From assembly GCF_024323335.1 (NCBI RefSeq), contig NC_066581.1, positions 343,730,399 to 343,794,398 on the forward strand: DNA of 64,000 nt, read 5' to 3'. The translations under genes were made by a program, and so were the position numbers. A model generated the notes under the pieces. That model was not told the origin of the DNA, made no database searches, and was given only the letters and a program-made list of their open reading frames with translations. Source of the DNA: Lathyrus oleraceus (Eukaryota > Streptophyta > Magnoliopsida > Fabales > Fabaceae). Positions 1,095 through 57,765 of this stretch are shown here, piece by piece. Numbering within the stretch: the stretch's first letter is position 1; every line of letters starts with the position of its first letter.

Positions 1095-1182
1095 TGTAAC
1101 ACCCCAAAATTTGCCCTCCTCATTCATGCATTCATTTAGCATTTCATATTGCATTTCATCATGTCAATCAGAATTAGATCCG

Positions 1183-1215
<33 letters not shown>

Positions 1216-2806
1216 TTACAAAAAAAAAATAATAATAATAAAAAATTTTAATTAATAAATTAATTAAATAATTAAATAAATAATAAATAATAAAAAAATT
1301 TGGACTTGGACCTTTCTCAAAAGCCCACTAAGCCACCAATATTAGCCTATAAATACTAGAGTTTCATTGAAACAAAAGCCACACAGAAGAGGAGAAGAAG
1401 GAAGAGAAGCAAAATACTCTGAAGTTTCCTTGGAACAAAACCCTGGAGGAAAAAGAAAGTGAGAGAAGAGTCAACAGAGTTCAGAGCAACCTCCGGACAC
1501 TGAAGGGAACTCATTGGCAAAGAACCAGTTCTACCTCATATAAACCCTGAGATTTTTCTGCAAACCCCGGTGCAATCCAATTTCAATCAAGCTCTCCAAT
1601 CAGGTTTGCCCTATATCCATCATCTCTATGCTTTCAATTTGAATTTTCTGAATGTGTGAGGTATTATGGGTGAATTTGATACCCTTTTGATGCATATGTT
1701 TAACAAGAGGTTTAGGCCTCCTACCCTTTTTTTTTTTTGTGAATTGAAAGGGCATGATTCATGTGGTTACATTTTGATTTGGGGGCAACTCTTGGTTACC
1801 CTATCTTGTTTCACTAACCCTTTTGTTGAGTTTTTGTGAGGGCTCACAGACTCTTGCAGAGATGGTTTGCGTGGTTTTCCCACTTTATTTGTGGGATACC
1901 CCCTGGAGGTTCATTCTGATTACATGTACTGACTCACCTTTCTTTGATGGCATCAGCTTGGGAGATCCATGGGTTTCTTACTCCTTTAATTGCTGTTACT
2001 TCGGATCTTTATCCGCGTGGTACTTTTACATTTTTCCCGCATTTTATTGCTTTCCTAGCTGGAAGACCTCGATAGGAGGCAACGTTTGAGCCCCTTGGTG
2101 GCATTTTACTTTGAGATACATGTTTTGTGTTTTGTATTCATATCCCTGCAGGTAGCGCGGTTCCTTCGTCAAGGACTGCCTTTTTTCCCTCGAGCATCCC
2201 AAACCCTAAAACCCAAAGCAACACGCTAACTCCTTCTACTACAGGCGAGTAAGTCTCCAAAGGTCGAGCATCCGGTAGATTGCGTAGTAACGTCGTTCGT
2301 CCAAAACCCAATCCATAACCCCGTAGTTAGCCGAACTACGTTTTGCTCTGATTCTCAGGCCAGATGAGATACGTAGGCATAAGACGCGATGTCTTAGCGA
2401 GCACACATCCCCCCAACCCATAGGTAGCCGAGCTACGAAGACTCTGATTCTCATATTCAGATGAGATACGTATGCAGTGGATGCGACATCCGCGCGAGTC
2501 ATTTTCATTTAACCCTTTTTTTTTGGCAAACAGTACAAGATAAACCCACACCCTTTAGACAAGAACTACAAAAGTGGATCCCGTAGAGTACTACGGATGC
2601 GTAGGGGTGCTAATACCTTCCCTTCGCATAACCGACTCCCGAACCCAAGATTTGGTTGCGAGACCCCGTCTTGTCCTTTCCTTTTTCAGGTTTACTTCGA
2701 GCGTTTCCTTTCCCTCCTTTGGGATGAATAACGCACGGTGGCGACTCTTCTGTCATTTTCTTTCGCCGGTTGTTTTTTTTCGCACTGTATTTTTCAGGTT
2801 GCGACA
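1095..2806 (+). repeat. 5' LTR of element A
   Basis: This LTR of about 1.7 kb begins TGTAACACCCC and ends GTTGCGACA. It contains a long A-run (about 1183-1211) followed by AT-rich sequence, a TATA box at 1348, and two sub-repeats near 2335-2500 of the form TCTGATTCTC..AGATGAGATACGTA. The same sub-repeats occur in reverse in B's LTR (18460-18620 and 22290-22340). Small reading frames inside (for example 1823-2089 and 2574-2840) are also found in the other LTR copy and show no protein-family features. Confidence 0.93.
1348..1355 (+). promoter_or_regulatory. TATA box of the 5' LTR of element A
   Basis: TATAAATA lies about 250 bp into the LTR and is followed by an A/G-rich stretch typical of plant leader RNA. 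The corresponding site in the 3' LTR (10299-10306) reads AATAAATA. Transcription would be expected to start about 30 bp downstream, near 1380. The start position is inferred. Confidence 0.6.
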
Positions 2807-2808
2807 GC

Positions 2809-2826
2809 TGGCGACTCTGCTGGGGA
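2809..2826 (+). other. Primer-binding site of element A (tRNA-Arg type)
   Basis: TGGCGACTCTGCTGGGGA begins two bases after the LTR. It starts with TGG, the complement of a tRNA CCA end, and is the primer site type known for Ogre elements (tRNA-Arg). The same 18-mer in reverse is found in element C (43424-43441), with one change in element B (18128-18145). Confidence 0.9.
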
Positions 2827-3955
2827 CTGAAAGAAGTTGACCTCTTGCTGGTCCATCTGCCCTAAGCGAGTCCCTCCTAGCTTTTGTAGTTTGTTTGTTT
2901 ATTGGGTGTTCATGCTTTTGTGCAGTTATTTATTTACCTGCTTTACCTTATTGCATTGTGTATATATCATTGCTGTTTCTGTTGGCTGGCTATGGCTGCT
3001 TGGTGATCTTTGTGAGATGAGTTCTATACCCGAACTCGAGTGCACTTAAGATAGGAGAATGGCATAGTCCTGTCAACTTGTGTGGAGTATTCCTTAGCGA
3101 GTTGACTTGCAAGCCCATTCACTTGGTGGAGGTCATGTTGAGATCAATAATGTCACATAAGTAAGTTGTGGTTAGACATTACTTGTTCCAATATAGACCT
3201 AAGAAGCCAAGGACCTTAGTTTACCAAACCCATCTTGGCCTATTCGTATGACATAGTGCGAAAGTCGTTCAAGTGTAAGATTTGATACGATTGTTACGCG
3301 ATACTACACTCATAAGAGTCTCTCTTGAGAAGATTGTTGGAATATGAGTAGTCGTTCCTCTGATAATATCCGAAAGATGGGATTATGACTATGGGAACTT
3401 TTTGTAGAACATGTTTGGCAGGTTTAAAACCTTAGTACACTCCTTTTGGGTGGTTCTTAACCTAAACTCCATGCTCGTGACTTGCAACAAACCCTTGATT
3501 CATGGTTAATCCGATCAGGTATCCTTAATATCAATGAAACTCGGGTGTTGATAAGGTGTAAACCATAATCCACCAAAATGGGTGGTTGATATTAAGGATA
3601 ACATAATCCATCCCATGATCTTTGTTTGGTGTGCTCTTAATTTCTCTCCAGACAGTGCAACCTGACAGATGTTCAAGCGGATCCATCAATTCTGATTGAC
3701 ATGCCTTTGCATTGCATAACATCATCTGCATATTTGCATCCAACATCTCATGCTTATTCATTTGCAGGGTATTCCCTTTCAAAACAGGGGTGCCTTAAAA
3801 CTGAACAAGCAGTGCATCGCATACCATGCATATTAACCCTTGTCTGTTTTGCAGGTGTCACCGCAGTGTCTAATGTTTGTTCCCTGAATCAGGCAGTTAT
3901 TGGTCCCAAGCGAGTCCACAGGTACCCGACAAAGGAAAATCGTCCACAACTAGCG
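2827..3955 (+). other. Untranslated leader of element A
   Basis: The leader lies between primer site and gag. It has no convincing reading frame. Large parts, including ATAGGAGAATGGCATAGTC, are conserved in reverse in element C (about 43020-43260). It contains a strong inverted repeat (3520-3600). A pyrimidine-rich CTGTTTTGCAG/GTGTC sequence at about 3844-3858 resembles a splice acceptor and is matched in element B just before its gag. Confidence 0.75.
3520..3600 (+). other. Leader stem-loop with a perfect 15-bp stem
   Basis: TATCCTTAATATCAA at 3520-3534 is the exact reverse complement of 3586-3600. A smaller CCACC/GGTGG hairpin sits in the loop. Element C carries two diverged copies of the same structure in its leader (42588-42662 and 42685-42754). 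Its position between primer site and gag suits a packaging or dimerisation signal, but that role is inference. Confidence 0.75.
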
Positions 3956-5548
3956 ATGGACCAAGTACAGAAAGAGCTGGCTGATATGCGTGAAAGGATG
4001 GATCAGTTCATGACATTGATGACTGGTATGGTAGCAGGTCAGGAAAAGATGAGGGAATTGGTTGAGCAACCGAGACACGATCCGGAGGTGGAGATACCAA
4101 ATGTTGAGGGAAACCCTGGTAACCCTGGGAACGCTGATAACCCTGTGAACACTGGTAACGCGGGTAACGCAAATGCTGATGGAAACCCGGGTAATGTTGG
4201 CAACACAAGGAATGTTGGAAATGATATTGGTGGAAGATACAATGTGAATCAAGGAATTCGGATTAACGGGCACCCCGTTACTGAAGATTATCAGTGTGAT
4301 CAATTTTCTTTGCACGACGAGGCCCTCGAGACCACTCGCCGTATGGATGAGCTTGCTGAGAAGCTCAAATCTTTGGAGTCTCAAAATTCCTTAGGTTTTG
4401 ATGTCACAAATCTTGGTCTGGTTCAGGGAGTAAGGATTCCTCACAAGTTCAAATCCCCTACTTTTGAGAAATACAACGGGGCTTCTTGCCCACGCACTCA
4501 TCTCCAATCTTATCTGGGAAGGTTGGGAGCTCACACGGAAGATGAAAAGTTGTGGATGTACTATTTTGAAGACAGTCTAACTGGAGCTTCTCGTGAATGG
4601 TATTCTCATTTGTCTCGTACTACCATCAAGAGCTGGAAAGACTTGGCAGAGGCTTTTGTCAAGCAATATCAATACAACTTGGACATGGCTCCAAATCGGA
4701 CCTTGTTGCAAGGTATGTCTCAGACTGCCAAGGAAACCTTTAGAGAGTATGCTCAGCGTTGGAGACAGATTGTTGCGTCCGTCCAACCCCCTATGTCTGA
4801 AAGGGAGATGGCGGACATGTTCATGAACACTCTTCAAGGCAATTATATTGAGAGATTGGCTGCTTGCCCGTCAATCAGCTTTGCAGAGATAGTAATTGCT
4901 GGAGAAAGAATCTAGAGTCTGTTGAAAATGGGCCGAATTCAAGACAATAGTGCTTCCAACCCATCAGGTCCCAAGAGACCGTTTGCTGGTAACGGTCAGC
5001 GAAGAAAAGAAGGTGAGGCAAGCGTTGTGTATGCCGGCAGAGGCAGGAGTAAAGGACGCCCTAATTATTATCAAGATCAAGTGGCCGCAGTCACTATTCC
5101 AACACCTGTTCCTCAACCGCAATATCATCTGCAACAACAACCCAGGTACAACAATCAACAACAAGGAGGTAATCCGGGTCAGCAGAGACACTATCAACAA
5201 CGTCCAAGGCAGACGGACCGGGTCATCGAGCCAATCCCAATGCCTTATTCAGTATTACTTCCCAAGCTAATTGACATGAATCTGGTTACATTGAGAACTC
5301 TGGCCCCACCAATCGATCCCAATAATTTGCCTAGAGGTTATGATGTCAACGCCAGATGTGCTTTTCACTCCAACGCACCTGGCCATACTACAGATAATTG
5401 CAAGGCTCTCCAGTTAAAGGTAAGAGATTTGAGAGATGCCCAGGCTATCAATTTTGCTCTGGTGCCTAATGTTATCCAGAACCCGATGCCGGCTCACGGC
5501 GGGCAGGGGATTAATGTTGTCGAAGTGGTTGAAGCTGGTAATGCCTAA
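3956..5548 (+). pseudogene. gag: Gag of element A, interrupted by one in-frame stop
   Basis: This encodes the capsid/nucleocapsid polyprotein that packages element RNA. The frame is open from 3701, but the start was placed at the ATG at 3956 (MDQVQKEL), which aligns with MDTSN in element B. An Asn/Gly-rich linker (about 4100-4230) follows an N-terminal coiled-coil-like part. The retrotransposon Gag core is at about 4410-4900, with landmarks such as KYNGASCPRTHLQSY, LWMYYFEDSL, REWYSHL and FREYAQRW. A TAG at 4913-4915 ends the frame, but the same frame stays open from 4916 to 5548. The Gln/Pro-rich C-terminal part holds a zinc-knuckle-like CAFHSNAPGHTTDNC. One nonsense change therefore separates core and nucleocapsid. 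Confidence 0.88.
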
Positions 5549-5802
5549 GGCTGAGGCAAATTTGTGGAGCCAGTCATGAAAGAAGACAAGTTTGGATTGG
5601 GGTATGCTCCGGGATCTCAGAAGAATGAAACCGGTACTTTCTCCAGCGGGGGTTTGGTTCCCCCCCACATCGTCAATGCTGCAGATGAAGACAAGGCTGA
5701 CAGCGACTGTGGCTTAGATAGCTGGATTCGCCCGTGTGTCTCGGGAGAAAAGCTCGATAATTGGTCGTCTGAAAAAACCGTTCGGGTTACTCTACTGAAA
5801 GA
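5549..5802 (+). pseudogene. C-terminal remnant of the protease reading frame, element A
   Basis: The segment starting FGLGYAPG and ending SEKTVRVTLLKE aligns with the end of element B's protease frame (FGVGYQPG ... AEKIITVTLREE). The retropepsin core with its Asp-Thr-Gly active site, present in B, is absent here. An internal deletion joins the end of gag directly to this tail near 5548-5564. The frame ends exactly at the splice donor of the Ogre intron. A short acidic motif, DSDCGLDSWIRPC, is conserved with B. Confidence 0.8.
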
Positions 5803-6081
5803 GTGATTTTTATTGTTTTCCTTTATTACATGCATAATAAAGTCTTACACTTTGCCCAAGGTGTAACGGCTCATTTGTAGGGCCATCCATTTAGTTACGT
5901 TTCGCAATTATTTTTATCATCAATAAAGGACGGCTTTTGCAAACAATTTTGTGTTCTCTTTCTTTCAGTTTTTTTTTACCTTTTACAAAAAAAAAATGGC
6001 AATGTTTCTTTTTTCGTTTTTCCTTTCTTTCAAAAAAAAAATCTCTCATTCTAAGGTAAAGCATGATCCTCCATCATGCAG
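5803..6081 (+). other. Candidate Ogre intron between protease and RT frames, element A
   Basis: The donor GA/GTGATT lies at the protease stop codon and the acceptor ATGCAG/A ends at 6081. Splicing would remove 279 bp and fuse codon GA+A, joining the protease and RT frames without a shift. Element B has an intron of the same length at 14164-14442 with the same phase. Splicing between these frames is known for Ogre elements. Here it is predicted from sequence only. Confidence 0.75.
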
Positions 6082-6330
6082 AGCCGACCACTCGGATCTC
6101 ACTGCTAACGACACTGCTATGGCCAAGTATGACTTCGACAATCCTATCTATCAAGCCGAAGAAGGGGCTGAGGAAGATTGTGAATTGCCTGAAGGGTTAG
6201 CCAGATTGTTGAAACAGGAGGACCGAGCTATTACACCTTATCAGGAGGTGGTTGAGACCATCAACGTTGGTACCGAAGACGACAAGAAAGAGATCAAGAT
6301 CGGGGCCAGTCTACAGGCCGAGAGGAAAGA
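6082..6330 (+). pseudogene. N-terminal part of the RT polyprotein, element A
   Basis: The stretch YDFDNPIYQAEEG..DCELPEGLARLLKQE and the following VETINVGTEDDKKEIKIGA align with the start of element B's RT frame. This non-catalytic region precedes RT in Ogre elements. After about 6322 the sequence jumps straight to RNase H, so the RT catalytic domain, including the YVDD motif seen in B, is deleted. The jump also shifts the reading frame. Confidence 0.8.
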
Positions 6331-7085
6331 CCGTTGATCATGTACTTGACTGTGTTAGAAAGGTCAATGGGTTGTGTGCTCGGTCAGCATGACGAGTCAG
6401 GTCGAAAAGAGCATGCAATATACTACCTTAGCAAAAGCTTACCGACTGTGAACAAAGATACTCATTGCTCGAGAAAACTTGCCGCGCTTTGGCATGGGCT
6501 GCTCGCCGACTAAGACAGTATATGTTGACTCACACGACTCTATTGATATCAAAAATGGATCCAGTCAAGTATATTTTTGAAAAGCCATCACTTACCGGAA
6601 AAGTTACTAGGTGACAAATGATACTGACAGAGTATGACATCCAATACACTTCACAAAAAGCCATCAAGGGAAGTGTCTTGTCAGACTATCTTGCAGAGCA
6701 ACCGATTGATGATTACCAACCTATGAGGTTTGACTTTCCTGATGAGGACATCATGTTTCTCAAATCGAAAGATTGAGAGGAACCACTCCCGGAGGAGGGG
6801 CCTGACCCTGAATCCAAATGGGTTATGATGTTTGATGGGGCGGTCCACGTCAATGGTCGCGGAGTTTGTATAGTGTTGATCACACCGGAAGGGGGTTCAT
6901 ATGCCATTGGTGCCAGAATAACTTTTCCCTGCACCAACAATGAAGCCGAATACGAAGCTTGTATCCTAAGACTTGAGGAAGCCGTCAAAATACAGATTAA
7001 ATCCCTGGATGTATACGGGGACTCAGCTTTGGTCATCAATCAAACCAACAGGGAAATGGTGCTATGCTGGAACTACGTACCCAGA
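6331..7085 (+). pseudogene. RNase H remnant, element A
   Basis: The segment beginning PLIMYLTVLERSMGCVLG matches the RT-RNase H connection of element B, and 6825-7060 encodes MFDGAVHVNGRGVCIVLITPEGG and GDSALVINQ, typical RNase H surroundings. The frame is broken by several stops. One shift near 6436, after YYLSKS, is shared with element B at about 12812-12816, so it predates both copies. The domain is cut short by a deletion leading into the integrase end. Confidence 0.8.
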
Positions 7086-7347
7086 ATTGACGTATCTCGG
7101 TCAGAGACGAATGAAGAAAGCATTTGGTCAGAAAGTGCGCTCTCGGGAGTATCGAGTCGGTGAATTGGTACTCAAAAGATTTCTTCCTCCCAACACAGAT
7201 CACAGGGGCAAATGGACACCGAACTATGAGGGTCCGTACGTGGTTAAAAGGATTTTCTATGGCGGAGCTTTGACGCTAACAACCATGGAGGGCGAAGGAT
7301 TCCCGTCCCCTGTCAACTCAGACGCGGTAAAAAAATACTTCGCATAA
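7086..7347 (+). pseudogene. Integrase C-terminal remnant, element A
   Basis: The frame ending at 7347 encodes RMKKAFGQKVRSREYRVGEL, then KWTPNYEGPYVVKR, and terminates DAVKKYFA. This is the DNA-binding C-terminal part of Tat-type integrases and aligns with elements B and C. The zinc-binding and catalytic DDE parts are missing. All three elements keep this same end, although their upstream deletions differ. Confidence 0.85.
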
Positions 7348-8148
7348 AATAGACCCGCTGGACAGTAAAAAGAATAGTTTAGGCAAAAAAGGGGCATCAA
7401 GACGAACCAAAAAAAAGAATAAAGAGGTTCGGGCAAAAATTAGGGATATATAAAAAAAAAGAGTACACCCGGTGAGCCGAAAACCCAAAAGGGCGGCTCA
7501 GGCAAAAATGGGTATCCCGGTGGATTGAAAACCCGAAAAGGGGGCGATCCAGGCAAAAGTTAGGGAATGAGCGAATGACTATGATCTGAGTTCATCAGTG
7601 TTATATCACCGTTTCATTCAATCCGGCAATCTTCGAAGGTTAAAGATCGACTAATCATCCACTTCAGAAAGCAAGATGAGCAGAGCGTCTTGAGGACATA
7701 CGAGTCATAGCAGAGTCGAAACTCAGTGGGACCCCATTTCCACATTGCCATTAGGATAGTTCTTTTTTTTTTATAGCGATCACCTCTTTTCAGGGATCAG
7801 CTTCCTGATACCCTCGCCTATTCCTGGCACAAATTTTCTCCCCATTAAGAGTCGAATAATTCAGTTAAAGAGCCTCTTTATTTTTCATTTATCAGTTTGT
7901 TTGCAAAAATGTCCGAATTTTTGATAAAACATATTGCATATGAACATAATGGTGGCTTTTGCAGATGATTTGCACAGGAAAACATTTAAAATTGCTTTGA
8001 ATGTGCTTAATCCCGGACGGTGAATTCAAACCGAGTAATTCCCCCGAGGCATACGTGTATTTTTGGTTGCAGGTCACAGGAACCGGATGCCAAGTCATGA
8101 ATCCTCATCCCCAAGCGGTTAACAAAGTCTCTCCTCAGCAGAGCATGT

Positions 8149-8350
8149 TCCCCAGTAGAGTTGACAGTATCCAGACTGTCTATCCCCAATAGAGTTGACA
8201 GTATCTAGACTGTCTATCCCCAACAGAGTTGACAGTATCCAGACTGTCTATCCCCAGTAGAGTTGACAGTATCCAGACTGTCTATCCCCAGTAGAGTTGA
8301 CAGTATCCAGACTATATATCCCCAGCGGAGTTGACAGTGTCAGACTGTAT
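8149..8350 (+). repeat. 34-bp tandem array, about six units, carrying a motif complementary to the primer site
   Basis: Each unit reads roughly TCCCCAGTAGAGTTGACA followed by GTATCCAGACTGTCTA. The first half matches the reverse complement of this element's primer-binding site at 15 of 18 positions. The second half forms a small GACAG..CTGTC hairpin around TATCCAGA. The units differ by a few substitutions, and the last ones are degraded. Confidence 0.85.
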
Positions 8351-8847
8351 CTTCCTAGCAACAGCGGAGTGGTTGCATACCCAACGGACAAGAGGGTGGT
8401 GTTCCCAGTGTTCATCTCATCCCCAACATTATTTCTAACAGATTTGTTCTAATCCCCAGCTTGAGGGCGATTAGCAAGTTCATATCCCCAGCAAAGGTCG
8501 TTTCCTACGACATTTCCCCAGGAAGTGTTTTCCCCACAGACTCTCCTCACAGAGCCTCGCCGAACAAAGTTTCCATAGTTGATACTCCCCCCGCAAGGTC
8601 AACTTTTCAAGCAGCCAATTTATTTTTGGTGGCTCATTGGTCCCGGCAGACGGATCATTCCCCACAGAGCATTCTAGGATTGATACAGCGATCTGTTCCC
8701 TACCGGAGTTTGCTTCCCCAAGCAGATTTCTTTTTATACCATGCATAACATTTGCATTTGCATGCATATCATATCAAGCATACACATAAGCTGATAAACA
8801 GGTCCTTCCAAGCAGACTGAAGAATTACTTTACAACCAAGGTCATGA

Positions 8848-9102
8848 GATCCAGCTAGAGGATCAAGCGTGAGTGATCCAGCCTGAGGGTCGTTTTGAAG
8901 ATTCAGCCTGAGAATCGTTTTCCAGTGATCCAGCCTGAGGGTCATTTTGAAGATTCAGCCTGAGAATCGTTTTCCCGTGATCCAGCATGAGGGTCACTTT
9001 TTGAAGATTCAGCCTGAGAATCGTTTTCCCGTGATCCAGCATGAGGGTCATTTTTGAAGATTCAGCCTGAGAATCGTTTTCCCAAGAGTCAGCCTGAGGC
9101 TC
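8848..9102 (+). repeat. Micro-hairpin array, block 1 (loop AGCCTGA)
   Basis: About ten short units alternate between GATCC-AGCCTGA-GGGTC and GATTC-AGCCTGA-GAATC. The block starts with GATCC-AGCTAGA-GGATC (8848-8864) and ends with GAGTC-AGCCTGA-GGCTC (9086-9102). Each unit has a 7-nt loop between complementary 5-nt arms, counting G-T pairs. A longer period of about 50 bp arises because two units alternate. Confidence 0.85.
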
Positions 9103-9337
9103 AATTTGAAGATTCCCCAGTGAAGTCGCCTACAAGCTTTATTTCCCCACCAAGTCTAATTGAGGAGTCGTTACAACATGTTCTAGCCCGAAGAATATGT
9201 ATGAAGCCCAAAAGTGGAATATTCTCGAAGCTGCATATCTAATATGAAGGTTGGGTTTAGATTTCAAAAGAAGGTCAACCAGCGCATGCCTCAGATGCGG
9301 GATCCTAATGATGGGAATTTATCATCAAAACAATCCA

Positions 9338-9875
9338 GATCTAGCCAGAAGATCGAAGTCAGGTCTAGCCCGAAGACCGGAAATAGATTCAGCCAGAGAA
9401 TCGAAGCAATTCAGATCTAGCCAGAAGATCGAAGTAGATTCAGCCAGAGAATCAAAGGAAATAGATTCAGCCAGAGAATCGAAACAAAGAAGATCTAGCC
9501 AGAAGATCAAAAATCGCAACAATTCAGATCTAGCCAGAAAATCGAAATAGATTCGGCCAGAGAATCGAAACAAAGAAGATCTAGCCAGAAGATCGAAGTC
9601 AGGTCTAGCCCGAAGACCGGAAATAGATTCAGCCAGAGAATCGAAACAATTCAAATCTAGCCAGAAGATCGAAGTAGATTCAGCCTGAGAATCAAAGGAA
9701 ATAGATTCAGCCAGAGAATCGAAACGGAGGAGATCTAGCCAGAAGATCGAAGAAGATCTAGCCAGAAGATCAAAATCGTATCCAGCCCGAGGATCAAAAT
9801 TAATATCCGACCAGAGGACTAAATTGAGTATAGGTTCAACCAGAGGATCGAAACTCCAGATCCAGCCAGAGGATC
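9338..9875 (+). repeat. Micro-hairpin array, block 2 (loop AGCCAGA/AGCCCGA)
   Basis: About twenty further units follow, mainly GATCT-AGCCAGA-AGATC and GATTC-AGCCAGA-GAATC, with GGTCT-AGCCCGA-AGACC (9362-9378 and again near 9601) and GATCC-AGCCAGA-GGATC (9859-9875). The arms vary but remain complementary in most units, while the loop stays nearly constant. A 211-residue open frame on the minus strand here (9325-9960) is a by-product of the repeats. Confidence 0.87.
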
Positions 9876-10026
9876 GGAAGAAAAATAAACAGCACGGTGT
9901 ATTTCCGCGTTTTTGTGGTGTTCTCGGAGCGCAAATTTTCGGTCTATCTTTGGTATTCAATCACAGCTCACCCCGTTTGTCTGATAAGCTATTCGCTTTC
10001 ATCCTACTCGGGTTAGCTGATGATTG

Positions 10027-10038
10027 AATAGGGGCAGC
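10027..10038 (+). other. Polypurine tract region of element A
   Basis: ATAGGGGCAGC directly precedes the 3' LTR. The same ATAGGGGCA core precedes the 3' LTR of element C on the minus strand (35730-35742). It probably primes plus-strand DNA synthesis. The tract is short, so the assignment rests on position and conservation. Confidence 0.65.
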
Positions 10039-11759
10039 TGTAACACCCCAAAATTTGCCCTCCTCATTCATGCATTCATTTAGCATTTCATATTGCATTT
10101 CATCATGTCAATCAGAATTAGATCCGAAAAAAAAACGAAAAAACGAAAAAAAAAAAAAAATCTTTTACAAAAAAAAATAATAATAATAATAAAAAAATTT
10201 AATTAATTAATTAATTAAATAATTAAATAAATAATAAATAATAAAAAATTTTGGACTTGGACCTTTCTCAAAAGCCCACTAAGCCACCAATATTAGCCAA
10301 TAAATACTAGAGTTTCATTGAAACAAAAGCCACACAGAAGAGGAGAAGAAGGAAGAGAAGCAAAATACTCTGAGGTTTCCTTGGAACAAAACCCTGGAGG
10401 AAAAAGAAAGTGAGAGAAGAGTCAACAGAGTTCAGAGCAACCTCCGGACACTGAAGGGAACTCATTGGCAAAGAACCAGTTCTACCTCATATAAACCCTG
10501 AGATTGTTCTGCAAACCCCGGTGCAATCCAATTTCAATCAAGCTCTCCAATCAGGTTTGCCCTATATCCATCATCTCTATGCTTTCAATTTGAATTTTCT
10601 GAATGTATGAGGTATTTTGGGTGAATTTGATACCCTTTTGATGCATATGTTTAACAAGAGGTTTAGGCCTCCTACCCTTTTTTTTTTTTTTGTGAATTGA
10701 AAGGGCATGATTCATGTGGTTACATTTTGATTTGGGGGCAACTCTTGGTTACCCTATCTTGTTTTACTAACCCTTTTGTTGAGTTTTTGTGAGGGCTCAC
10801 AGACTCTTGCAGAGATGGTTTGCGTGGTTTTCCCACTTTATTTGTGGGATACCCCCTGGAGGTTCATTCTGATTACATGTACTGACTCACCTTTCTTTGA
10901 TGGCATCAGCTTGGGAGATCCATGGGTTTCTTACTCCTTTAATTGTTGTTACTTCGGATCTTTATCCGCGTGGTACTTTTACATTTTTCCCGCATTTTAC
11001 TGCTTTCCTAGCTGGAAGACCTCGATAGGAGGCAACGTTTGAGCCCCTTGGTGGCATTTTACTTTGAGATACATGTTTTGTGTTTTGTATTCATATCCCT
11101 GCAGGTAGCGCGGTTCCTTCGTCAAGGACTGCCTTTTTTCCCTCGAGCATCCCAAACCCTAAAACCCAAAGCAACACGCTAACTCCTTCTACTACAGGCG
11201 AGTAAGTCTCCAAAGGTCGAGCATCCGGTAGATTGCGTAGTAACGTCGTTCGTCCAAAACCCAATCCATAACCCCGTAGTTAGCCGAACTATGTTTTGCT
11301 CTGATTCTCAGGCCAGATGAGATACGTAGGCATAAGACGCGATGTCTTAGCGAGCACACATCCCCCCAACCCATAGGTAGCCGAGCTACGAAGACTCTGA
11401 TTCTCATATTCAGATGAGATACGTATGCAGTGGATGCGACATCCGCGCGAGTCATTTTCATTTAACCCTTTTTTTTTGGCAAACAGTACAAGATAAACCC
11501 ACACCCTTTAGCCAAGAACTACAAAAGTGGATCCCGTAGAGTACTACGGATGCGTAGGGGTGCTAATACCTTCCCTTCGCATAACCGACTCCCGAACCCA
11601 AGATTTGGTTGCGAGACCCCGTCTTGTCCTTTCCTTTTTCAGGTTTACTTCGAGCGTTTCCTTTCCCTCCTTTGGGATGAATAACGCACGGTGGCGACTC
11701 TTCTGTCATTTTCTTTCGCCGGTTGTTTTTTTTCGCACTGTATTTTTCAGGTTGCGACA
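10039..11759 (+). repeat. 3' LTR of element A
   Basis: This copy is nearly identical to 1095-2806. I see about ten substitutions, plus differences in the A-rich run (10127-10160, here interrupted by CG). One substitution changes the TATA box to AATAAATA at 10299-10306. The low divergence indicates recent insertion. Confidence 0.94.
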
Positions 11760-11813: not shown

Positions 11814-12275
11814 TTATACAAAGTATTTTTTAACTGCGTCCGCATTCACAGGGGATGGAAAATCCTCGCCATCCATGGTCGTCAACAACAAGGCTCCGCC
11901 AGAGAAAACCTTCTTAACCACGAATGGACCTTCATAATTGGGTGTCCACTTGCCCCGACAATCATTCTGAGGAGGAAGGATCCTTTTCAATACCAAATCT
12001 CCCACATGGTACGCACGAGGTCGTACCTTTCGGTCAAAAGCACGCTTCATTCGCTGCTGGTACAACTGCCCATGACAAATGGCCGCCAGCCTCTTTTCCT
12101 CAATCAGGCTCAACTCTTCATACCGAGTCCTTATCCACTCAGCCTCTTTCAATTGCACATCCATCAGGACTCTCAACGAGGGAATCTGGACCTCGACTGG
12201 TAGCACGGCTTCCATCCCATACACAAGCGAGAAAGGCAGTGCCCCAGTAGATGTGCACACCGAGGTTCGATACCC
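11814..12275 (-). pseudogene. Integrase C-terminal remnant, element B
   Basis: The frame encodes YRTSVCTSTGALPFSLVYGM, the end of the catalytic core region, then KWTPNYEGPFVVKK, and ends DAVKKYFV. The DDE catalytic residues and zinc-binding domain are absent. Upstream the sequence joins an RNase H fragment near 12275, where both partners appear to share a GGGTAT-type stretch, suggesting deletion by illegitimate recombination. Confidence 0.83.
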
Positions 12276-12870
12276 AGGATACAAGTTTCGTACTTGCCAC
12301 CTTGTTGGTGCATTCAAACGTTAGCCGGGCAGCAAAAGGAATGTGGGATCCTTTCGGCGTAACCAAAACAGCACCAACCCCACTACCATTCACGTTAACG
12401 GCCCCATCAAACATCAGAATTCGTTCGGATTCAGGGTCAGGCCCCTCCTCCGGGATCGGTTCCTCACAATCTTTCGATTTGAGAACCATGATGTCCTCAT
12501 CAGGGAACTCAAACTTCATTGGTTGATAATCCTCAATGGGTTGTTGGGCGAGGTAATCAGACAATACACTCCCCTCTATTCCTTTCTGAGAGGTCTACTG
12601 AATATCGTATTCAGACAAAATCATTTGCCATCTCGCAACCCGTCCGGTCAATGCTGGCTTCTCAAAAATATACTTGATTGGATCCATCTTGGAAATCAAC
12701 AAATTGGTATAAACCAGCATATACTATCTCAGTCGGCGAGCAGCCTATGCCAAAGCACAACAAGTTTTCTCGAGCAGTGAATATCTTGTTTCACAGTCGG
12801 TAAACTTTTGCTAAGGTAGATTGCATGCTCTTTTCGACCAGACTCGTCATGATGCCCCAGTACACACCCC
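12276..12870 (-). pseudogene. RNase H remnant, element B
   Basis: RPLILYLTVLEGSMGCVLG starts the connection after RT, and MFDGAVNVNGSGVGAVLV with LTFECTN is the RNase H N-terminus. Stops occur after WHRLLAD, and a frameshift shared with element A lies just after the LSKS codons, at about 12812-12816. A further single-base loss follows ECTN. The domain breaks off before its last catalytic region. It would normally degrade RNA in RNA/DNA hybrids during reverse transcription. Confidence 0.8.
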
Positions 12871-13932
12871 ATAGACCCCTCGAGGACCGTCAAGTACAGA
12901 ATTAACGGTCGTCCCTCCACAGGAGGCATCAGAATCGGAGGCTCCTGCAAATACTCTTTTATCTTTTCAAATGCCGCTTGGCAATCATTATTCCACCTGA
13001 CCGTTTGATCTTTTCTCAACAACTTGAATATGGGTTCACACGTGGCTGTTAGATAAGATATGAACCGTGAAATGTAGTTCAATCTACCTAAGAAACCATA
13101 AACCTCTTTCTCTGTTCTCGGTTCAGGCATTTCTCGTATTGCTTTTACTTTAGCGGGATCAACCTCGATTCCTCTTTCGCTCACAATAAACCCCAGCAAC
13201 TTACCGGACCGCACTCCGAAAGTGCACTTATTCGAATTCAACCTCAGTCTGAATTGTCTCAATCGGTCAAACAACTTGGCCAGATTTGCCAGATGCCCCT
13301 CTTCTGTTTGGGACTTTGCTATCATGTCATCAACATAGCATTCGATTTCATGATGAATCATATCATGAAACAAAGTCACCATAGCCCTCTGATAAGTAGC
13401 ATCGGCGTTCTTGAGACCAAATGGCATCACCTTATAGCAGAAAGTGCCACACGGTGTGATGAACGTTGTTTTCTCCATATCATCTGGCGACATTTTGATT
13501 TGATTATAGCCAGAAAAGCCATCCATGAAGGAAAACACCGAGAGTTGAGCTGTATTGTCTACCAACACATCGATGTGAGGTAATGGAAAATCATCTTTCG
13601 GGCTAGCTCTATTCAAATCTCGGTAGCCCACACACATTATCACCTTCCCATCCTTCTTCGGGACCAGCACAATGTTCACGACCCAAGGCGGATAATTGGT
13701 GACAGCGAGGAAACCAGCATCCAACTGCTTTTGCACTTCCTCTTTGATTTTCATGGCCATCTCGGCGAGTTCTGCGCAACTTCTGCTTCACTGGAGGACA
13801 GTCTGCTCTCAATGGTAACTTGTGCACAACGATATCGGTATCCAACCCTGGCATATCTTGATAAGACCAGGCGAAGATATCAACATACTCTTTCAACAAG
13901 GCTACCATTCTGCTCTTGACATTTGCCTCCAA
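12871..13932 (-). pseudogene. Reverse transcriptase domain, element B (frameshifted)
   Basis: This is the best-preserved RT in the window. From the ATG at 13760 it encodes RDLNRASPKDDFPLP (about residues 47-61), FMDGFSGYNQIKM (78-90), TFCYKVMPFGLKNA (106-119) and the catalytic YVDDM (142-146), as expected of Ty3/gypsy RT. The N-terminal part, including DIFAWSYQDMPGLD and VKQKLRR, lies in a different frame (13609-13932), so at least one frameshift sits near 13760 and another near 13930. The enzyme copied element RNA into DNA in virus-like particles. This copy is inactive as written. Confidence 0.9.
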
Positions 13933-28960: not shown

Positions 28961-29136
<176 letters not shown>

Positions 29137-30088: not shown

Positions 30089-31084
30089 TGTAGCGGTGTA
30101 TTCGTCGCTATATGATTTATTGATTAAACCATAAGCAAAGCATACAATGAATTCGAGTCGCCACCGCACTTTTATTTATCCAAAGGACTGGCTAAAAAGC
30201 GAACAAAAGCCTAAGAAGTTTTACACGTAGAAAACTAATTAAAAGATCAGAGAGTCTGGGTAAGGGGTAAATTACGCAATGGGAAGGTGTTAGGCACCCA
30301 CTACGTCCTAGGTACTCCTAGGGAGCCCTTTTCACACTTGTTGTATAAAATTGTTATTGGTTATGACATAAATATTGTGCAAACATGATTGGGATGATGA
30401 GAAAAGAATATACAATTTTTATTGGGTTTGAACGGATGAACCCGTTGCCTACGTACCTCCCATCAAAGGTAAGGATCAAAACGTCGTAGTTCGGCTAAAA
30501 ACTTCCAAAAGTTAGTGAGTTCAGTTTTAAACAATAGCACTGAGGCTTTTCATTATCAATGGGAGAAAACTCGACCAAGACCAACATCCACCATGCTAGG
30601 ATAGCTTCGACGTACTAGAGGGGTTAACCCTGTTTTCAGTACGGAAGTCTTATAGTCGACTCACTAAGGATAGGGTGAGGTTTACATCAACCACAATGAT
30701 AATTGAAACCTATGGCTAATGCATGAAAAGATTAACAATGGACAAAGCCAAAACAATTGAATGGGTGAAGTTAATTGATTGTGATTGTGAAAGTAGGGTC
30801 AAAGTATGATTAAGATTGATTCAGAAGAAGTGTTATGAAATGGAGTTTGAAAAAAATCAAGGACTTGGGGTCCAGGTTTTTAATTTGAAAATATGAAGAT
30901 GTTTGCACAATATTTATCTCAAGTTTTGAAAGTAAGGTGTGAAAAGGTTTAGGACATAATGGGAATGAATGGATGAGGATGGATTGTAAAACTTCTTAGA
31001 AGATTCACCTCTTGAGATCATATAGAAGATGATTCAAGTGTGTCCTTTGGAATGGGAAATGAGCAATAATAATAAGCAAATAAA

Positions 31085-31600
31085 TGATACCGGATGCCAC
31101 TCAATGGTCTTACTCCAATCTCACAAACAAAAAAGCGGATACCGGATACCAATAGATGGATTTACACCAATCTCCTAAAACAGAAATGGATATCAGAGGC
31201 CATTCAATGGACTTACACTAATCTCCTCAACAAAGAAATGAAAGTGGATACCGGATGCCAATCACTGGGCTTATACCAATCTCCAACAAAGCAAACACTT
31301 GGATGTCAGATGCCAATCTATCTGGGCTTACTCTAACCTCCAACATATGATCATAGGAATACAAATGCCAAATTACACGGACTTACAATTGTATCCTCAT
31401 ATACAAACAAACAAAGCAACATATGATCACAGGAAAGCAAATGCCAACTTACAGGGACTTATAATTGCATCCTCACATAAAATCAAACAATGCAACACAT
31501 GGATGTCAGATGCCAATTTATCTGGGCTTACTCTAACCTCCACAGTATGGTCCTAGGAATACAAATGCCACATCACAGGGACTTATAATTGTATCCTCTC
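31085..31600. repeat. LTR sub-repeat array, units of about 50-60 bp
   Basis: Units share GATGCCAATC..TGGGCTTAC..CAATCTCC with variable linkers, roughly nine copies. The same array is in LTR2 (about 44444-44960) but is deleted from LTR3. Two related units occur in B's LTR (18680-18750). Confidence 0.8.
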
Positions 31601-34576
31601 ATACAACAAACAAATGCATCAAGCAAAGATAAGATGAGTGGCCAATGAAATGGTCTTACAACTCACTTCCATATCATAGAAACAATGGCCAAAGGAATGG
31701 TCTTACAATTGTTCTCAATGGGTAAACAACAATGATAATGTCACAAAGACAAATGAGATGATCATGCAATAATGAGCAACCAATGATGATAAATGCATAA
31801 AGCATACAAGCAAACAAGTGCATATGAAATAATCAATCAATGAAAGCATTCAGCACACACTATAACCAAACAATGAGGCTCATACAAAAGGGTTAGGCAT
31901 TGAAGCCAACTGGAATAGGGTCAATGGTGCTCTTAACCTTGACATTGAGGGGCTAAGGTGAAGCAGATGAAAGGATATGAGGGGTGTGCCTCATTGCTCT
32001 TATCCCTAGTCAGGGAGAGCATTGAATATCAGAAGGTGTGGGAGTTCAGAAAGTAGGAACTCTCTCCACAGATAAGACTCTATAGATCTTGGGCTTGGAT
32101 CTCAATGCTACAACCATGTAATGGGAGCAAGGAGAAGACTCACAAAATAGTAGGAGATAGGTTGCTTATCTCTTAGATTCTACCAATTGCCTTATTTGAA
32201 GGACTTTTCCTGCTTGGGACAAATGTAAACACACACAAGCATTGCCTCTTAAGGAGGACTTCAGACAGTTGCCTGGCCAAATAACAGGCCAGCTCTTCCA
32301 GACTACATGAAGAAAAGGGATTATACCTCAATGCAAATTGCTATATAGCAAAGCAAAGCAAGTTCAAAGAACTAAGCAACTAATGGTACCTGAAATAGTC
32401 AAACAGAATCAGTACACAATTCAAAAGTTAAAGCAAAAGGAGGTAGGAATCAACAGTCAAAACAAACAGACAAATGTGCAATGCACAAGTCTCAAGGCAT
32501 ATGAGCCAAGCAACCTACAAAACAAAGAGGTTAGCTCATGATAATCAAATAAACTCATTCAACTTGTATAAGTTTCTTTGAGGCAATTGCTTCTCAACCT
32601 GAAAACATGAACTCAAACATAAGCAATAAGACCACTAGGGCAAGCCTAGGGTCAAAAGAGAATGAGAAAGTCAAAACAGCAAGTGATATCCAATCAAAAT
32701 CAAATTCAAACATTTAAGAAGCAAGCTCAATTGGTTTCATGTTCATATCATGCATCATCATCATTTCATAAGCAAAAGAAGTCAAAGCATGGCAAATGAA
32801 AGCTAATAGAAGTCAACAGCAAGACTTAACTCAAAACCAATCATAAACAATTCCAAAAATCATCAAATAATTCATGATCAATCATAATCCATAACATGAC
32901 ATGCATATAAAATTTCAGCTCAATTGGATCATGGGAAGATAGTCAATGAAAATCAGAAAGGCAGGGCAACTTCAAACATGCTCAAAGAAGTCAACCAAAC
33001 ATGTATCAGCTTCAAAAATTCATAAATCAGTGATAACATATGAGAAATGAATGGGATCAAAACCATGGCAAAGCTTAAGATGTCTACTAATCACATGTCA
33101 AATTTCAAATTCATCCAATTAAGTATGAGAATTTCACAAATGATATGGCATGATGTGTCACAAAAAGTCAACATATGACCAAACAGGGGAGAAAAATCTC
33201 AAACAATTATGAAATGCCACAAATAATTCCAAGAAAAATCACATGTAAACTAGACATCCATAGGTTCATTCATGCAAAAATTCAGATCAATTTGAGTTCA
33301 AGAAGCATGGCATCAAAAATCATGAAATTGCACATCAATGGTGTGACACAAATTGTCACACCCTAATTCAAAAAATCATAACTCAACAACCAGAGATGAT
33401 AAATTCATAAACTCTACACCAAAATCACCATGAATGTGTCTAGTTTATGCACAAAAACTTTCAAGGCCATTGGATAATGCATCACCATTTCACAAATGTT
33501 TTGGCAAAAGGTACAAAATATGAGCACATGAACAAAACCCTAATACCAATTAAAATCCACTTATCAAAAAAATCAGGAAAAATCATGATAAATAAGTAGA
33601 GATCCAGATGAGCACAATGCAAAAAGTTTCATGAATTTTGGATCACAAATGAAGGAGCTATGAATTTTGGAAGATTGGAGATCAAAGTGAAATAATTATT
33701 GAAGAAAAAATGAAATAAACATGATTTAATTAAATAATTGGACACGGAGTGGCAGTCTGGTAAATATTGTGAAAACTTAATGAAACGGTGCGCATGGCTT
33801 TGGGACGTGGCAACAGGCGACTGGCTCATGGCAATGAAATAGTGACAAGTTCATGCAAAACAAAATATTACACAGCCAAACGATTTCTGGAAACAGGGTT
33901 TAGGGTTCATGCATCTACAGTACATCATCTTCAACACCAAGAAATCGTGACAAAAAAATGTGCCCAGAAATGGAAATTAATCATACCATTCAACTCATAT
34001 AATCATATACAAACACAATCCAACCCTAATTTCTATCAAATCGAGCCATCAAACAAGAACCAAGCAAAAACATATTTCATCATTAATCTTTAAATCAGCA
34101 TAACTTTCCAAATACACAACCATTTCATGTGATTTAAAGCTCATTGTAACCATGGCAAAGAGATCTATCATAATCATATCATGTTTTAGCAAATAGTGAG
34201 AGTCGAAACCTTAGCAAAAGTGAAGAGCAGCTGTGATATAGTTGTTGTTTGGTGGTTTTGGCTCGAAACAGATGAAGCTCCAAGCTCCAAAAGGTGAATG
34301 GATGAAGAGTTTTGGCTCAGCAACCCTTGAAACGGCTCAATTCGAAATCTGTCATTGATGAGTTTGGAAATAGCACAGTTGCAAGAATGCTTTACAGTTG
34401 GGAAACAAGGCTTGAAATGAGCTCAACAAGGATGGTATGATGAAGCAAACCACACAAGTTCGAAGCCTTGGCAATTTTCAGAAAAAAGTTCAGATGAAGA
34501 AAAATGATGTTTGAGAGAAATGAGCTTTTTCTGTTTTCAATTGTGGCTGCTAGGGTTCTGCTCAAAGAGAAAATGA

Positions 34577-34586
34577 GCTATTTATG
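34577..34586 (-). promoter_or_regulatory. TATA box of element C's LTR (LTR1 copy)
   Basis: The minus strand reads CATAAATAGC. It is preserved at 47935-47944 (LTR2) and 56608-56617 (LTR3). The downstream sequence is A-rich and leader-like, as after the TATA box of A. The assignment is by sequence only. Confidence 0.5.
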
Positions 34587-35729
34587 TGCTGTTTAAGGTT
34601 GGCTAAGTGTGTTTTGTTCTGTGGTAATTGGAATTTTGAGAAATGTCATGTTTTGCTAATTTGGCCAATTTCACTTAAGTGGTGAGGTGCAATGCTTACA
34701 GCTCGAAAATGGGCCTTTGGGCAAGTTCCAATTACATATTCTGGTCAATTTCAATTGGCCAAAATGATTAAAAATGGTTATTTCAAAAAGTCAAATTTCA
34801 CCCTCACTTGAAATTAATTCATGTAAGTTCAAAAAGGCCATTTTGATTTGTAATGTTTTGATGCATGATGGTTACATATTTGGAAAGAGGAGATCAAATG
34901 TGACTTGTTGCAAAAAACCCCACCCAATTTGGCCAAATGGTTTGAGAGATATGGCCTTTTGAAGTTCAAAAATTTTTGAGAATGATTTGATCATAACATG
35001 CCAACCATACATGGGAATTGAGTGTTCTTGGACTTTTTGGAAATGGGAGAACAAGATCTTCAACTTTCATGTTGGGCAAAAATTCATTTGAAGCTTGTAT
35101 GATGATGTAAGTTTAGGATCAAGAAGTTTCCATTTTTGGCAAATTCCAATTACAGGTCAAGTTTCTATTTTTGGAAATTTTCTGTTTGACTTCAAATTCT
35201 TCCATGATGGTGTTTGACATGATATATGAGGCTTATATGGACATGAATGAGATCTCTCAAACCAATTCCCACCATCAAATCACTGATTAAATGCACAGTT
35301 GACCAAGTTTGACTTTCTAGGGTTTTGGTTGACTGAACCATGTTCTGATGAATTCCAAACCCTAATTCCTTGAGATCTTGATTCCAAATGATATCACAAC
35401 ATATGTGAACTCTTGACTATTGATCATGGTGCCCAAATTCTTCAAGAATGGCCACCATCCACTGTTTAATGACTGATCTGACTGTTTGACTGATGATTGC
35501 TTCAGCTGCAAGTAACATGGTTAGATGACAATATTTTTGTACTTTTTGGTTAGTAAACATATGAAAAGCAAAGATATACAAATGCAAAGCATGCTTGGTG
35601 ATCAAGAACCACACTCACAAGGCAAACCACCCACTAGGAGGGAAGCTAGGGCATGCAATGATCCTTGAGGCCATGATATGATATGATGTGGGCCATGAGG
35701 GATCTTAGGGCCAAAATTGGGGTCTTACA

Positions 35730-35742
35730 GATGCCCCTATTT
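35730..35742 (-). other. Polypurine tract region of element C
   Basis: The minus strand reads AAATAGGGGCATC immediately before LTR1. The second copy lies at 49088-49100 before LTR2. The ATAGGGGCA core is the same as in element A. Confidence 0.65.
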
Positions 35743-36399
35743 AAGGTCATTCTAGCCGGAGAAGTGAAGTTTAGAAATCTTCATCTCGACGCGGTAGAAT
35801 GGGCTTAAATAACAGTAATGAGACAAATTTTGGTCCCTAAGAGACCTCATGATGCAAATGTATGCATGCAAAAGACACAGCAAATTCTGTGGGGAACATG
35901 ATTTACACAGAAGAAAAGACGATCCATCGGAGTAATATGCTCACCAGGAACAGAGACTCTAACAAGACTCTAGTTGGGGATAGTAAGAGAAAAAGAAATG
36001 CGTGAACAAAACACGACTTCAAATTGGGGAAAAACAAAAACTGACACCGCGTGAACGAGACACGACTCTGATTAGGGAATAACAGAAATCAAACTGGAGA
36101 CCTCACTGGGGAGTGAAAGACTCACACTGGGGAAAAGAACAAACCAAAGGAACAACATCCATTGGAGAGACACAAGCTGACTCCTGGGAAGAAGCAACAA
36201 GAAACTTCAATGAGGAAGTACCAAAGAAATGAGATGTTACCGGTATAAGGGTAACAAGCTCAGGAAGAATGAATATCTAAGACCGGTATAAGGGTGAGAG
36301 ATATCAATCAACCAATATCTGAGAAAGACCTGAAAAAGGTACATAAACTCAGGAAAATCTGACTCCACAAGGGACCGAGGTCATAATAGGGAGCAGAAA

Positions 36400-37980
36400 G
36401 GAAGGAACACCAGGGATACCGGGTTGTAGGTATGTAACAGGTGACCGACCACAGACGTGAATTGGTGTGTGTTCCAAAACACTCATCATCCTGAAGAGAG
36501 CGAAAGCAAACTTGTTTATAGGATGGATATTTTATTCTATAAAGAATGCAAATCTTACTCAATTGGGGAAACAAACAAAGTGTTCGACAAGAGAGTGCAT
36601 GAGATATATTATCTATAGCCGTCAAAACGTAGATAATGTACTCGCATGGAAAGTTATCCTGAACCGGGTTGTAGGTTGTTTATAGGATAAGATCCGAAAT
36701 TGTGAATTGGTTTGTGTTCCAAAACACTCATCATCCTGAAGAAAGCTAGAACAGCAGACTTGTTTATAGGACAGATATTCGATTCTATAAAGAATGCAAA
36801 TCTTACTCAGTTGGGGAAGATCAACAAAGGACTCCAACCAAAGAGCGCATGAGACATATTATTCATTACCGGCAAACCGTGAATAATATACTCGAAAGGA
36901 AGAGACACCAGAGATACCGAAGTATATAATAGGTGACTAACCAAAGCGTGAATTGGTATATATGCCAAAACACTCATCATCCGAAAGGAGGGCTTGAAAA
37001 AGCAAATCGACTTACAGGATGGACATTCGAATCCACAACGGGAAAACGAATCTTACTCAACTGGGGACACAAACCCAAAGAGTGCATGAGATACAATATC
37101 CATTACCGGCAGACCGTGGATAAGAATACTCGCATGAGATTTATTATCTATTACCGTCAGAACGTAGATAATAAACTCGCATGGTAAGAAACACCAGAGA
37201 TACCGAAGTATATAATAGGTGATCTACCGAAAACGTGAGTTGGTATGTATGCCAAAACACACATCATCCAAAACACAAACTGGTTAAAGGATGGATATTC
37301 GATTCTACAAAGAATACGAATCTTGCTCAGCTGGGGAAAACCAACAAAGGATTCCAACTAAAGAGCGCATGAGACATATTATTCATTAACGGCAGACCGT
37401 GAATAATATATTCGAAAGGAAAAGACACCAGAGATACCGAAGTATATAATAGGTGACTAACCAAAAAGAGAGACAATCGATACCAAGCATCCGGGTAAAC
37501 GAAAGACAACTCAAAGGGATAAATTGCAAGCATCCGGCAATTATCCGACAGCACAGAAATATTCGACTCCGCAAAGGGAAATAACGAATCTTACTCAACA
37601 AAGAAAACACAAAAGGCTTCGACTGAAGAGTGCATGAGATATATTATTCATTACCGGCAGACCGTGAATAGTATACTCGAAAGGAAAAGACACCAGAGAT
37701 ACCGAAGTATATAATAGGTGACTAACCAAAAAGAGAGACAATCGATACCAAGCATCCGGGTAAACGAAAGACAACTCAAAGGGATAAATTGCAAGCATCC
37801 GGCAATTATCCAACAAAACAAATATTCGACTCCGCAAAGGGAAATAACGAATCTTACTCAACAAAGAAAACACAAAAGGCTTCGACTGAAGAGTGCATGA
37901 GATATATTATTCATTACCGGCAGACCGTGAATAATATACTTGCATGGAAGATTATCCACAACCGGTTACTGGGTTAATAA
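36400..37980. repeat. Tandem array of about six 236-285-bp units, each with a covarying hairpin
   Basis: Units begin near 36408, 36653, 36905, 37191, 37427, 37691 and 37955 and share ACCAGAGATACCGAAGTATAT or close variants. Most contain a hairpin such as ATTATTCA..CGG-CAGA-CCG..TGAATAAT (36858-36887). The array recurs at about 49760-51338 in the second internal copy. The last two full units (from 37412 and 37677) are nearly identical, so they are recent duplicates. Confidence 0.85.
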
Positions 37981-38099
37981 AGGATAAATCAACCGAAAAG
38001 AAAGGCATCGGGATACCAAACTAGGTATATAATGATGACCAATCAAGAGGAGCAACAGACATTACCAACAAGAGGGTAAATGAAAGGCGATCTGCTGAG

Positions 38100-40260: not shown

Positions 40261-40950
40261 GGTCTGAAGAAAGAAGATACAAACAAACCAGGAATATGAA
40301 CAAATGTCTTACCTGTTGGAGATCATGCCACCCTCGGGAGAGCACTGAGATATTCTTGAGTATCCTTTCAATATTGTGAATGTTCACTTTGTTTAAAACA
40401 ATGTTTTGAAAATTTTGATTTGTTTAAAACAATGATATTTTATCAATTTAAAACATGCAAAACATTTGTTGAATTGAAACAAATAAGAGTGCAAATAATT
40501 GGGTAAAAAGCTCAAATTGATTTGATGGAATGGTAGCCTGCAAATGGCAAGACTCCATAGATCTGTACAAATTTGAAATCAGTGATATATATTGGAAGAG
40601 GGCTACATTGAACATAATGATCCTTTCTCTACCAATTTGAATCTCGATGTATCCGAAGCTTCGGTTGACGACGAATCGAGAATCTTCTGACGAAATGACG
40701 ACTGGTGAACAGAAAGTCTTGTCAGGATGCAGTTACTTGCCCAAATCCCTGATTTTTGCCTAGATTGCCCCAGGGTGAGGTACTCAATCTAGCGGGATGC
40801 AAATATTCTTTTTTTTTCAAGTCTCTAATTTTTGCCTGAATTACCCTTGCGGGTTCTCCACCGAGACGCTCATTTTTGCCTAAGCCGCCCTTTCGAGTTT
40901 TCAACTTAGCGAGCTATTCTGTTTTTTTCATTTGCATATACTTTTTTTTT

Positions 40951-57760: not shown

Positions 57761-57765
57761 GTTAT
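57761..57765. repeat. Right target-site duplication GTTAT of element C
   Basis: This matches 30084-30088 exactly. It proves that all three LTRs belong to one insertion event. Confidence 0.9.

Follow-up and report, generated by a model that had tools for sequence, protein, structure and literature searches.

A tandem array of short hairpins with compensated stem changes in the 3' untranslated region of an Ogre/Tat-like retroelement

Introduction

Tandem repeats in the 3' untranslated regions (3'UTRs) of legume Ogre/Tat elements are reported by Macas (2009, as cited in PMC7004042). A second RNase H domain, besides that of reverse transcriptase, is a mark of the Tat group. In a legume, repeats from Ogre 3'UTRs act as seeds of satellite DNA (PMC7004042), and PMC3305785 and PMC11963269 both state that the function of such 3' repeats is unknown. 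Two described systems resemble the locus studied here in position: the minisatellites of the soybean element Gmr9/GmOgre, which lie between the coding region and the LTR and comprise five interleaved unit types (PMC3305785, in part), and the region between POL and the 3' LTR of Retand elements, which holds tandem arrays together with antisense frames (PMC11963269, in part).

Here we analyze a window of Lathyrus oleraceus DNA (the whole stretch under study, 64,000 nucleotides). A preliminary description of this DNA, made from its letters, had claimed an array of about thirty micro-hairpins with covarying stems and a constant loop in a retroelement of this type. Such arrays would have a testable reason for their existence if each unit is an RNA hairpin that has been maintained, and they would then offer a natural system, presumably with very many copies per genome, in which selection for RNA pairing could be separated from hairpin-templated mutation.

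Results

The array lies in the 3'UTR of a defective Ogre/Tat-like element

The array is carried by element A, a retroelement on the plus strand at 1095-11759. Its 5' LTR (1095..2806, +) starts with TGTAACACC and ends with GCGACA, its 3' LTR (10039..11759, +) starts at 10039, and the two are 98.7% identical. Both LTRs have TG..CA ends, and CCGGG stands directly outside both ends of the element as a target duplication; by these features element A is an LTR retrotransposon. A gag reading frame (3641..4915, +) matches Pfam Retrotrans_gag with E 4.3e-14, and pol remnants survive as two separate RNase H-like stretches within 6256..7163 (+, by Pfam). The first, 6256-6513, matches RT_RNaseH (E 2.2e-05); the second, 6777-7163, matches RVT_3 (E 5.7e-08) and RNase_H (E 5.3e-05, with RNase_H under its cut-off). 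A Pfam scan of seven sense frames of the coding part matched neither reverse transcriptase nor integrase, and the room between 5548 and 7347 is only about 1.8 kb. With gag but without a complete pol, element A is a defective copy.

We call element A Ogre/Tat-like, with pol deleted, on the basis of its layout, its two RNase H matches and the look of its LTRs; some of the features that define the group are absent. Tandem repeats between pol and the 3' LTR, as in Ogre elements, are present as two arrays (8149-8348 and 8848-9875). An RNase H besides that of the reverse transcriptase is present as RVT_3 at 6777-7163, in addition to RT_RNaseH at 6256-6513. The extra ORF1 upstream of gag was not found: between the LTR and the gag frame, frames of at least 70 aa amount to one 72-aa sense frame (2831-3049), and this copy may have lost ORF1. 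The sequence after 2806 is one that we take to resemble the Ogre tRNA-Arg primer site.

The last pol-side frame (6970-7347) has no Pfam match and ends at 7347, leaving a 3'UTR of 2.7 kb (7348..10038, +) before the 3' LTR. It contains two kinds of tandem repeats. The first is a 34-nt array (8149..8348, +) of six copies, four of them with a 6-bp hairpin GACAGT/ACTGTC; a weaker second hairpin is possible around CCCCA, and no two-sided changes were seen in the hairpins of this array. The second kind is the hairpin array.

Other repeats occupy the surroundings. A minus-strand relative, element B, lies at 1-1094 and from 11760 to about 18600, seemingly split by the insertion of element A. It contains a reverse transcriptase frame at 12729-13760 (RVT_1, E 1.6e-26), and a frame resembling the last part of the pol side of element A stops at 11814, with its continuation, judged by eye, apparently in 1-1094. 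Farther along, a TA dinucleotide run of about 79 copies occupies 28962-29119, and a 10.2-kb stretch (30089-40287) recurs 13,359 bases on, at 43448-53645, with 99.7% identity; 53637-57761 is a third presence of a 4.1-kb part of that stretch, reflecting either recent tandem duplication or an assembly effect.

The array consists of 32 five-pair hairpin units

The array holds 32 units of 17 nt at 8848-9875, all on the plus strand, each made of a 5-nt arm, a 7-nt loop AGCCNGA or a near variant, and a second 5-nt arm. This bears out the preliminary count, and all six arm pairs quoted there occur in the array. The exact loop alone gives 26 sites in 8840-9880, where pairing holds in 127 of 130 arm cells. 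In the rest of the window, on both strands, 11 sites have this loop, and they pair at one to four of five positions. Allowing one loop mismatch gives 34 sites, with five of five pairs in 28, four in three, and two or three in the last three. These last three (8861, 9200 and 9328) look like chance loop matches and were dropped; the 32-unit set adds a poorer unit at 9804, which has two loop mismatches and three of five pairs. Five pairs form in 28 of the 32 units, all Watson-Crick in 21 of those, and pairs are broken in the units at 9527, 9654, 9779 and 9804. The covariance model, trained on 16 distinct units, returned 32 matches, all on the plus strand within 8848-9875, the worst at E 0.048; the next, among the 40 matches listed for the window, stood at E 3.5.

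The loop, previously described as constant, is nearly so: the exact form predominates, but eight forms occur in the array, among them AGCATGA, AGCTAGA, GGCCAGA, AACCAGA and GACCAGA. The stem has five pairs, and at most units the next flanking pair gives no extension. Hairpins of the 5+7+5 shape cover 57% of a 500-nt interval at the array against a median of 7% over the window; the density of generic hairpins with stems of at least 6 pairs does not set the array apart, because its stems have five. Rfam covariance models gave no match to E 1 in 8100-10038 and, over the whole window at gathering scores, one tRNA only.

The units fall into two groups and a single outlier. Sub-array A1 (8848..9102, +) has 10 units with arm pairs GATCC/GGATC, GATCC/GGGTC, GATTC/GAATC and GAGTC/GGCTC, in a 52-nt higher-order repeat. 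A lone unit at 9180, with loop AGCCCGA, has its stem lengthened to 9 bp (9176..9200, +). Sub-array A2 (9338..9875, +) has 21 units with arm pairs GATCT/AGATC, GATTC/GAATC, GGTCT/AGACC and GATCC/GGATC plus variants, in higher-order repeats of 78 and 240 nt; 9324-9508 and 9564-9748 are 94.6% alike. As had been claimed, compensated change is found at each of stem positions 2 to 5: position 2 occurs as A-U, G-C and U-A, position 3 as U-A and G-C, and positions 4 and 5 each as C-G and U-A.

Because the copies come in higher-order repeats, independent events are few. Counting by eye from the pair types, we arrive at about five two-sided changes that are independent of one another: two at position 2 and a single one at each of positions 3, 4 and 5. 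The strength of these repeats, together with the finding of only ten distinct arm pairs among the 26 exact-loop units, is what one would expect if a few founder hairpins, different by chance, had each been amplified once with no maintenance of pairing.

Pairing exceeds that expected from amplification and independent mutation

We simulated independent mutation along trees of the units, with 3000 simulations for each of five choices of tree and units, a starting unit of GATCC/GGATC and a 60% share of transitions (both assumed). Paired cells number 155 of 160 in the 32 units; the null averages 106, 125 and 119 on trees built from non-arm, all and arm columns, and no simulation of 3000 on any tree reached the observed value. 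In a reduced set of 20 units, from which later repeat copies were dropped, the count is 96 of 100 where the null averages 79 and 76, and 0 and 2 of 3000 simulations came up to it. On the non-arm, all-column and arm trees, 397, 10 and 1 of 3000 simulations equaled the observed number of pair types, as did 2 and 2 for the reduced set; the number of pairs with two-sided change was reached in 481, 28 and 28, and in 17 and 29 for the reduced set. Pairing is thus clearly above the null, whereas the two-sided measures are weak on the non-arm-column tree and moderate on the others.

Among the ten distinct arm pairs, 47 of 50 cells are paired, and the maximum in 20000 permutations was 46. The 16 distinct units are 93.8% paired, with a covariation score of 0.548 against a shuffled mean of 0.303 (reached in 0 of 500 shuffles, which ignore relatedness); when the arms were slid, the score was at most 0.182. 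Arm and loop columns are mostly less changeable than spacer columns, the latter being inflated by the ungapped spacer alignment.

The permutation result and the reduced set both argue against amplification of chance founders. Such founders would themselves have to share the loop and differ by compensated changes. The founder reading, which had been named in advance as a case that would undo the claim, is disfavored; it accounts for part of the array but not for the compensated differences between founders, and we give it a small chance of being right. Our data support the view that pairing in the array has been maintained or regenerated. The preliminary claim that the folded form was kept or generated holds to this extent, the tree null, the permutation, the slid arms and the related arrays described below all agreeing with it, whether the cause was selection or hairpin-templated mutation.

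Related arrays, read through predicted proteins, are consistent with the pairing

In public data (sources ena and jgi), we identified 14 predicted proteins, three of them from a third protein search, that are translations of similar arrays. Units were read in the frame D-x-A-R-y-S or its antisense counterpart, where x and y report stem positions 4 and 5 on both sides, and in the array translations L is partnered with R, S with E, and P with G. Of 77 units, 76 are consistent with sense-RNA pairing at positions 4 and 5 and one, in P0010, is broken, in a reading where ambiguous R, L and some S codons were assigned the codon of the window's array, the unit-picking expression restricts the allowed residues, and the proteins are close relatives rather than independent samples. 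Pairing is G-U-mediated in 10 of the 76 (two S-G and eight P-E). As far as predicted proteins of close relatives can report them, stems in related elements thus fit pairing at these two positions.

Imperfections are shared as well: the U.C at position 1 of the 9779 unit recurs in relatives, as does, by codon reading, the A.C at position 2 in the unit at 9804. For the relatives' last unit, a G-U change that had been inferred was dropped because the codons are ambiguous. One predicted protein, P0014, judged by eye, apparently reads sense through the element's 3' end and then antisense through the array, which points to a fold-back or a chimeric contig.

Searches of viral contigs found no match to one exact array unit and no relatives of gag. 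Matches to a degenerate unit came from 59 loci, one match each; among these loci only L005 has two fully paired exact-loop units, which was taken as chance. A 20-mer search of genome contigs gave no match.

Another reading places the constraint on an antisense protein. A frame of 211 aa (9325-9960, -) is open antisense through A2, portions of it appear among the predicted proteins of related copies, and antisense frames are usual in Retand elements according to the consulted part of PMC11963269. This frame has no Pfam match, however, and the spacing of the units is mostly not a multiple of three, so that the units fall in different frames of it; moreover, sense frames of such arrays are also predicted as proteins. 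We consider it scarcely credible that protein coding explains the pattern.

Predicted folding favors the sense strand

In a 1.4-kb context, the local hairpins have a mean pair probability of 0.35 in sense and 0.07 in antisense. Probabilities above 0.5 are found for 11 of 32 units in sense and 2 of 32 in antisense, with 21 of 32 at 0.5 or less on the sense strand; with pairs limited to 200 bases, the means are 0.37 and 0.10. Local hairpins are thus predicted to be favored on the sense strand. The stems of the main units are weak (-2.3 to -4.7 kcal/mol), and some variants are near zero.

Fold energy was set aside as weak evidence, and the shuffle measure does not single the array out. The energy of A1 is ordinary (z -0.94, sense) and that of A2 modestly low (z -2.55, sense); long pairings bring A2 lower still in antisense (z -5.55). 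Of 300 shuffles, 32 and 39 fold as well as the consensus 52- and 78-nt units, and among nine tandem consensus units of the window, on both strands, the lowest counts are 6/300 (36-nt unit at 39985, sense) and 13/300 (34-nt unit at 8149, sense).

One-sided transitions that leave a sense G-U recur in several units or copies in five of six cases, against one of five for those that leave A-C (Fisher 0.067); this is only suggestive, the 11 transitions having been picked by eye and post hoc from a list that is not exhaustive. A G-U intermediate between Watson-Crick states is present at positions 2 and 4; at position 5 the pairs seen are C-G and U-A, with no G-U between them.

The missing G-U stage at position 5 is expected if the compensation was templated by the hairpin itself, the nascent strand folding on itself during minus-strand cDNA synthesis or DNA replication so that one arm is recopied from the other, with no selected function. 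Single-stranded cDNA is a natural substrate for such mutation. The changes at positions 2, 4 and 5 (A-U to G-C and C-G to U-A) are those that the intrastrand form predicts if GATCC/GGATC is assumed as ancestor, and the consulted part of PMC8794818 describes the mechanism and its capacity to produce compensatory changes in one step. Repair of this kind would yield Watson-Crick pairs, yet G-U stems have been kept (GATCC/GGGTC in four copies, and the 9833 unit in relatives); the 5-nt arms are also short, and a table in PMC8794818, a source consulted in part, was filtered for 6 or more. As the main rival to selection, hairpin-templated repair would produce most of the pattern seen; we think it less likely than selection while taking it seriously.

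The nested repeats of 52, 78 and 240 nt would also fit a drive at the level of the unit, in which reverse transcriptase stalls at hairpins and strand transfer is promoted there. Paired units would then be the ones to duplicate, pairing being selected among units while the element gains nothing. In retroviruses, recombination can be concentrated at hairpins (PMC3187697, in part). Homology alone, however, predicts crossovers inside identical 17-mers, and the array's stems are weak for a stall site. We regard such a drive as unlikely.

The LTRs contain a structured motif with a unit-like hairpin

We identified a motif in the LTRs in which GAACTACG is followed by a spacer, by CTGAT or TTGAT and by a first hairpin, after which come TACGTAGGCA, or a sequence close to it, and a second hairpin. 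It is found in element A at 2322-2502 and 11275-11455 (+) and, on the minus strand, in the LTR of element B and three more places (18612-18451, 22336-22266, 30496-30426 and 43855-43785). Within it CTACG is able to pair with CGTAG, and the loop of the second hairpin is CGA in three copies, plus element A's first unit if G-U is counted. Arms differ widely between copies and are mostly still paired (87.5% of cells in eight aligned copies, among which two pairs are near-duplicates). Two-sided changes occur in 9 of 18 pairs, a count reached in 1 of 500 shuffles, and the covariation score is 0.452 against 0.240 for shuffled copies (0 of 500) and at most 0.175 with slid arms, for a structure that was drawn after seeing the sequences and whose second hairpin the 30 and 43 kb copies do not fit. 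Rfam gave no match to E 1 for element A's motif (2200-2830). A search with the LTR pattern returned 0 matches in viral contigs and three bacterial matches in genome contigs, where about eight were expected by chance.

One hairpin of this covarying LTR set, TCTCA-GGCCAGA-TGAGA (2353-2369), has the 5-bp/7-nt shape of an array unit and the loop of the 9550 unit. The array model scores it at 9.7 bits, with E 7.3 over the window and E 0.022 over 191 LTR bases. On this basis the array may copy or mimic, many times over, a structured RNA signal of the LTR, its hairpins then being candidate sites for binding by Gag or the reverse transcription machinery of the element itself. Against this, the likeness was noticed after the fact, the second unit of element A's LTR does not show it, and the 22.3 kb copy of the motif scores only 3.8 bits with the array model; we hold the idea to be decidedly unlikely.

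Discussion

The array is made up of hairpin units that carry two-sided changes, lie in higher-order repeats and have like units in related copies. The reading we favor, tentatively and at somewhat less than an even chance, is that it is a hairpin module of the sense RNA, whose pairing selection has preserved and whose copies template switching has multiplied. Units would be gained and lost as reverse transcriptase switches templates between repeats. Those able to pair in the sense RNA would persist, partly by way of G-U intermediates, since the hairpins would have a role in that RNA. They might serve there as a repeated recognition or folding module, in packaging or in cDNA synthesis. In retroviruses, template switching at hairpins and between direct repeats has been described (PMC3187697, in part). 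Against a selected module stand the small number of two-sided changes, the weakness of the stems, the sharing of imperfect units among relatives and the lack of a G-U form at position 5.

Tandem repeats in Ogre 3'UTRs are known, and in the open-licence literature, covered mostly at listing level and with subscription papers largely outside it, we found no report of covarying or otherwise compensated hairpin arrays in retroelement repeats, the same outcome as that given in the preliminary description.

The 3'UTR repeats of legume Ogre/Tat elements are like the array in their place between pol and the 3' LTR, in their short and variable tandem units and in their proposed origin by strand transfer; they differ in that the text of PMC7004042 has no mention of hairpin, palindrom, stem-loop or secondary structure. 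The units of Gmr9/GmOgre are 26-105 bp long and mostly unrelated to one another, and hairpins and secondary structure go unmentioned in PMC3305785. For Retand, PMC11963269 likewise contains no hairpin, stem-loop or secondary structure, and 'palindrom' appears only in a reference title. The template-switch mutation model of PMC8794818, as far as that source was consulted, would explain compensated arms with a kept loop, as in the array; it has been shown for rRNA and microRNA loci, whereas the array is a retroelement repeat.
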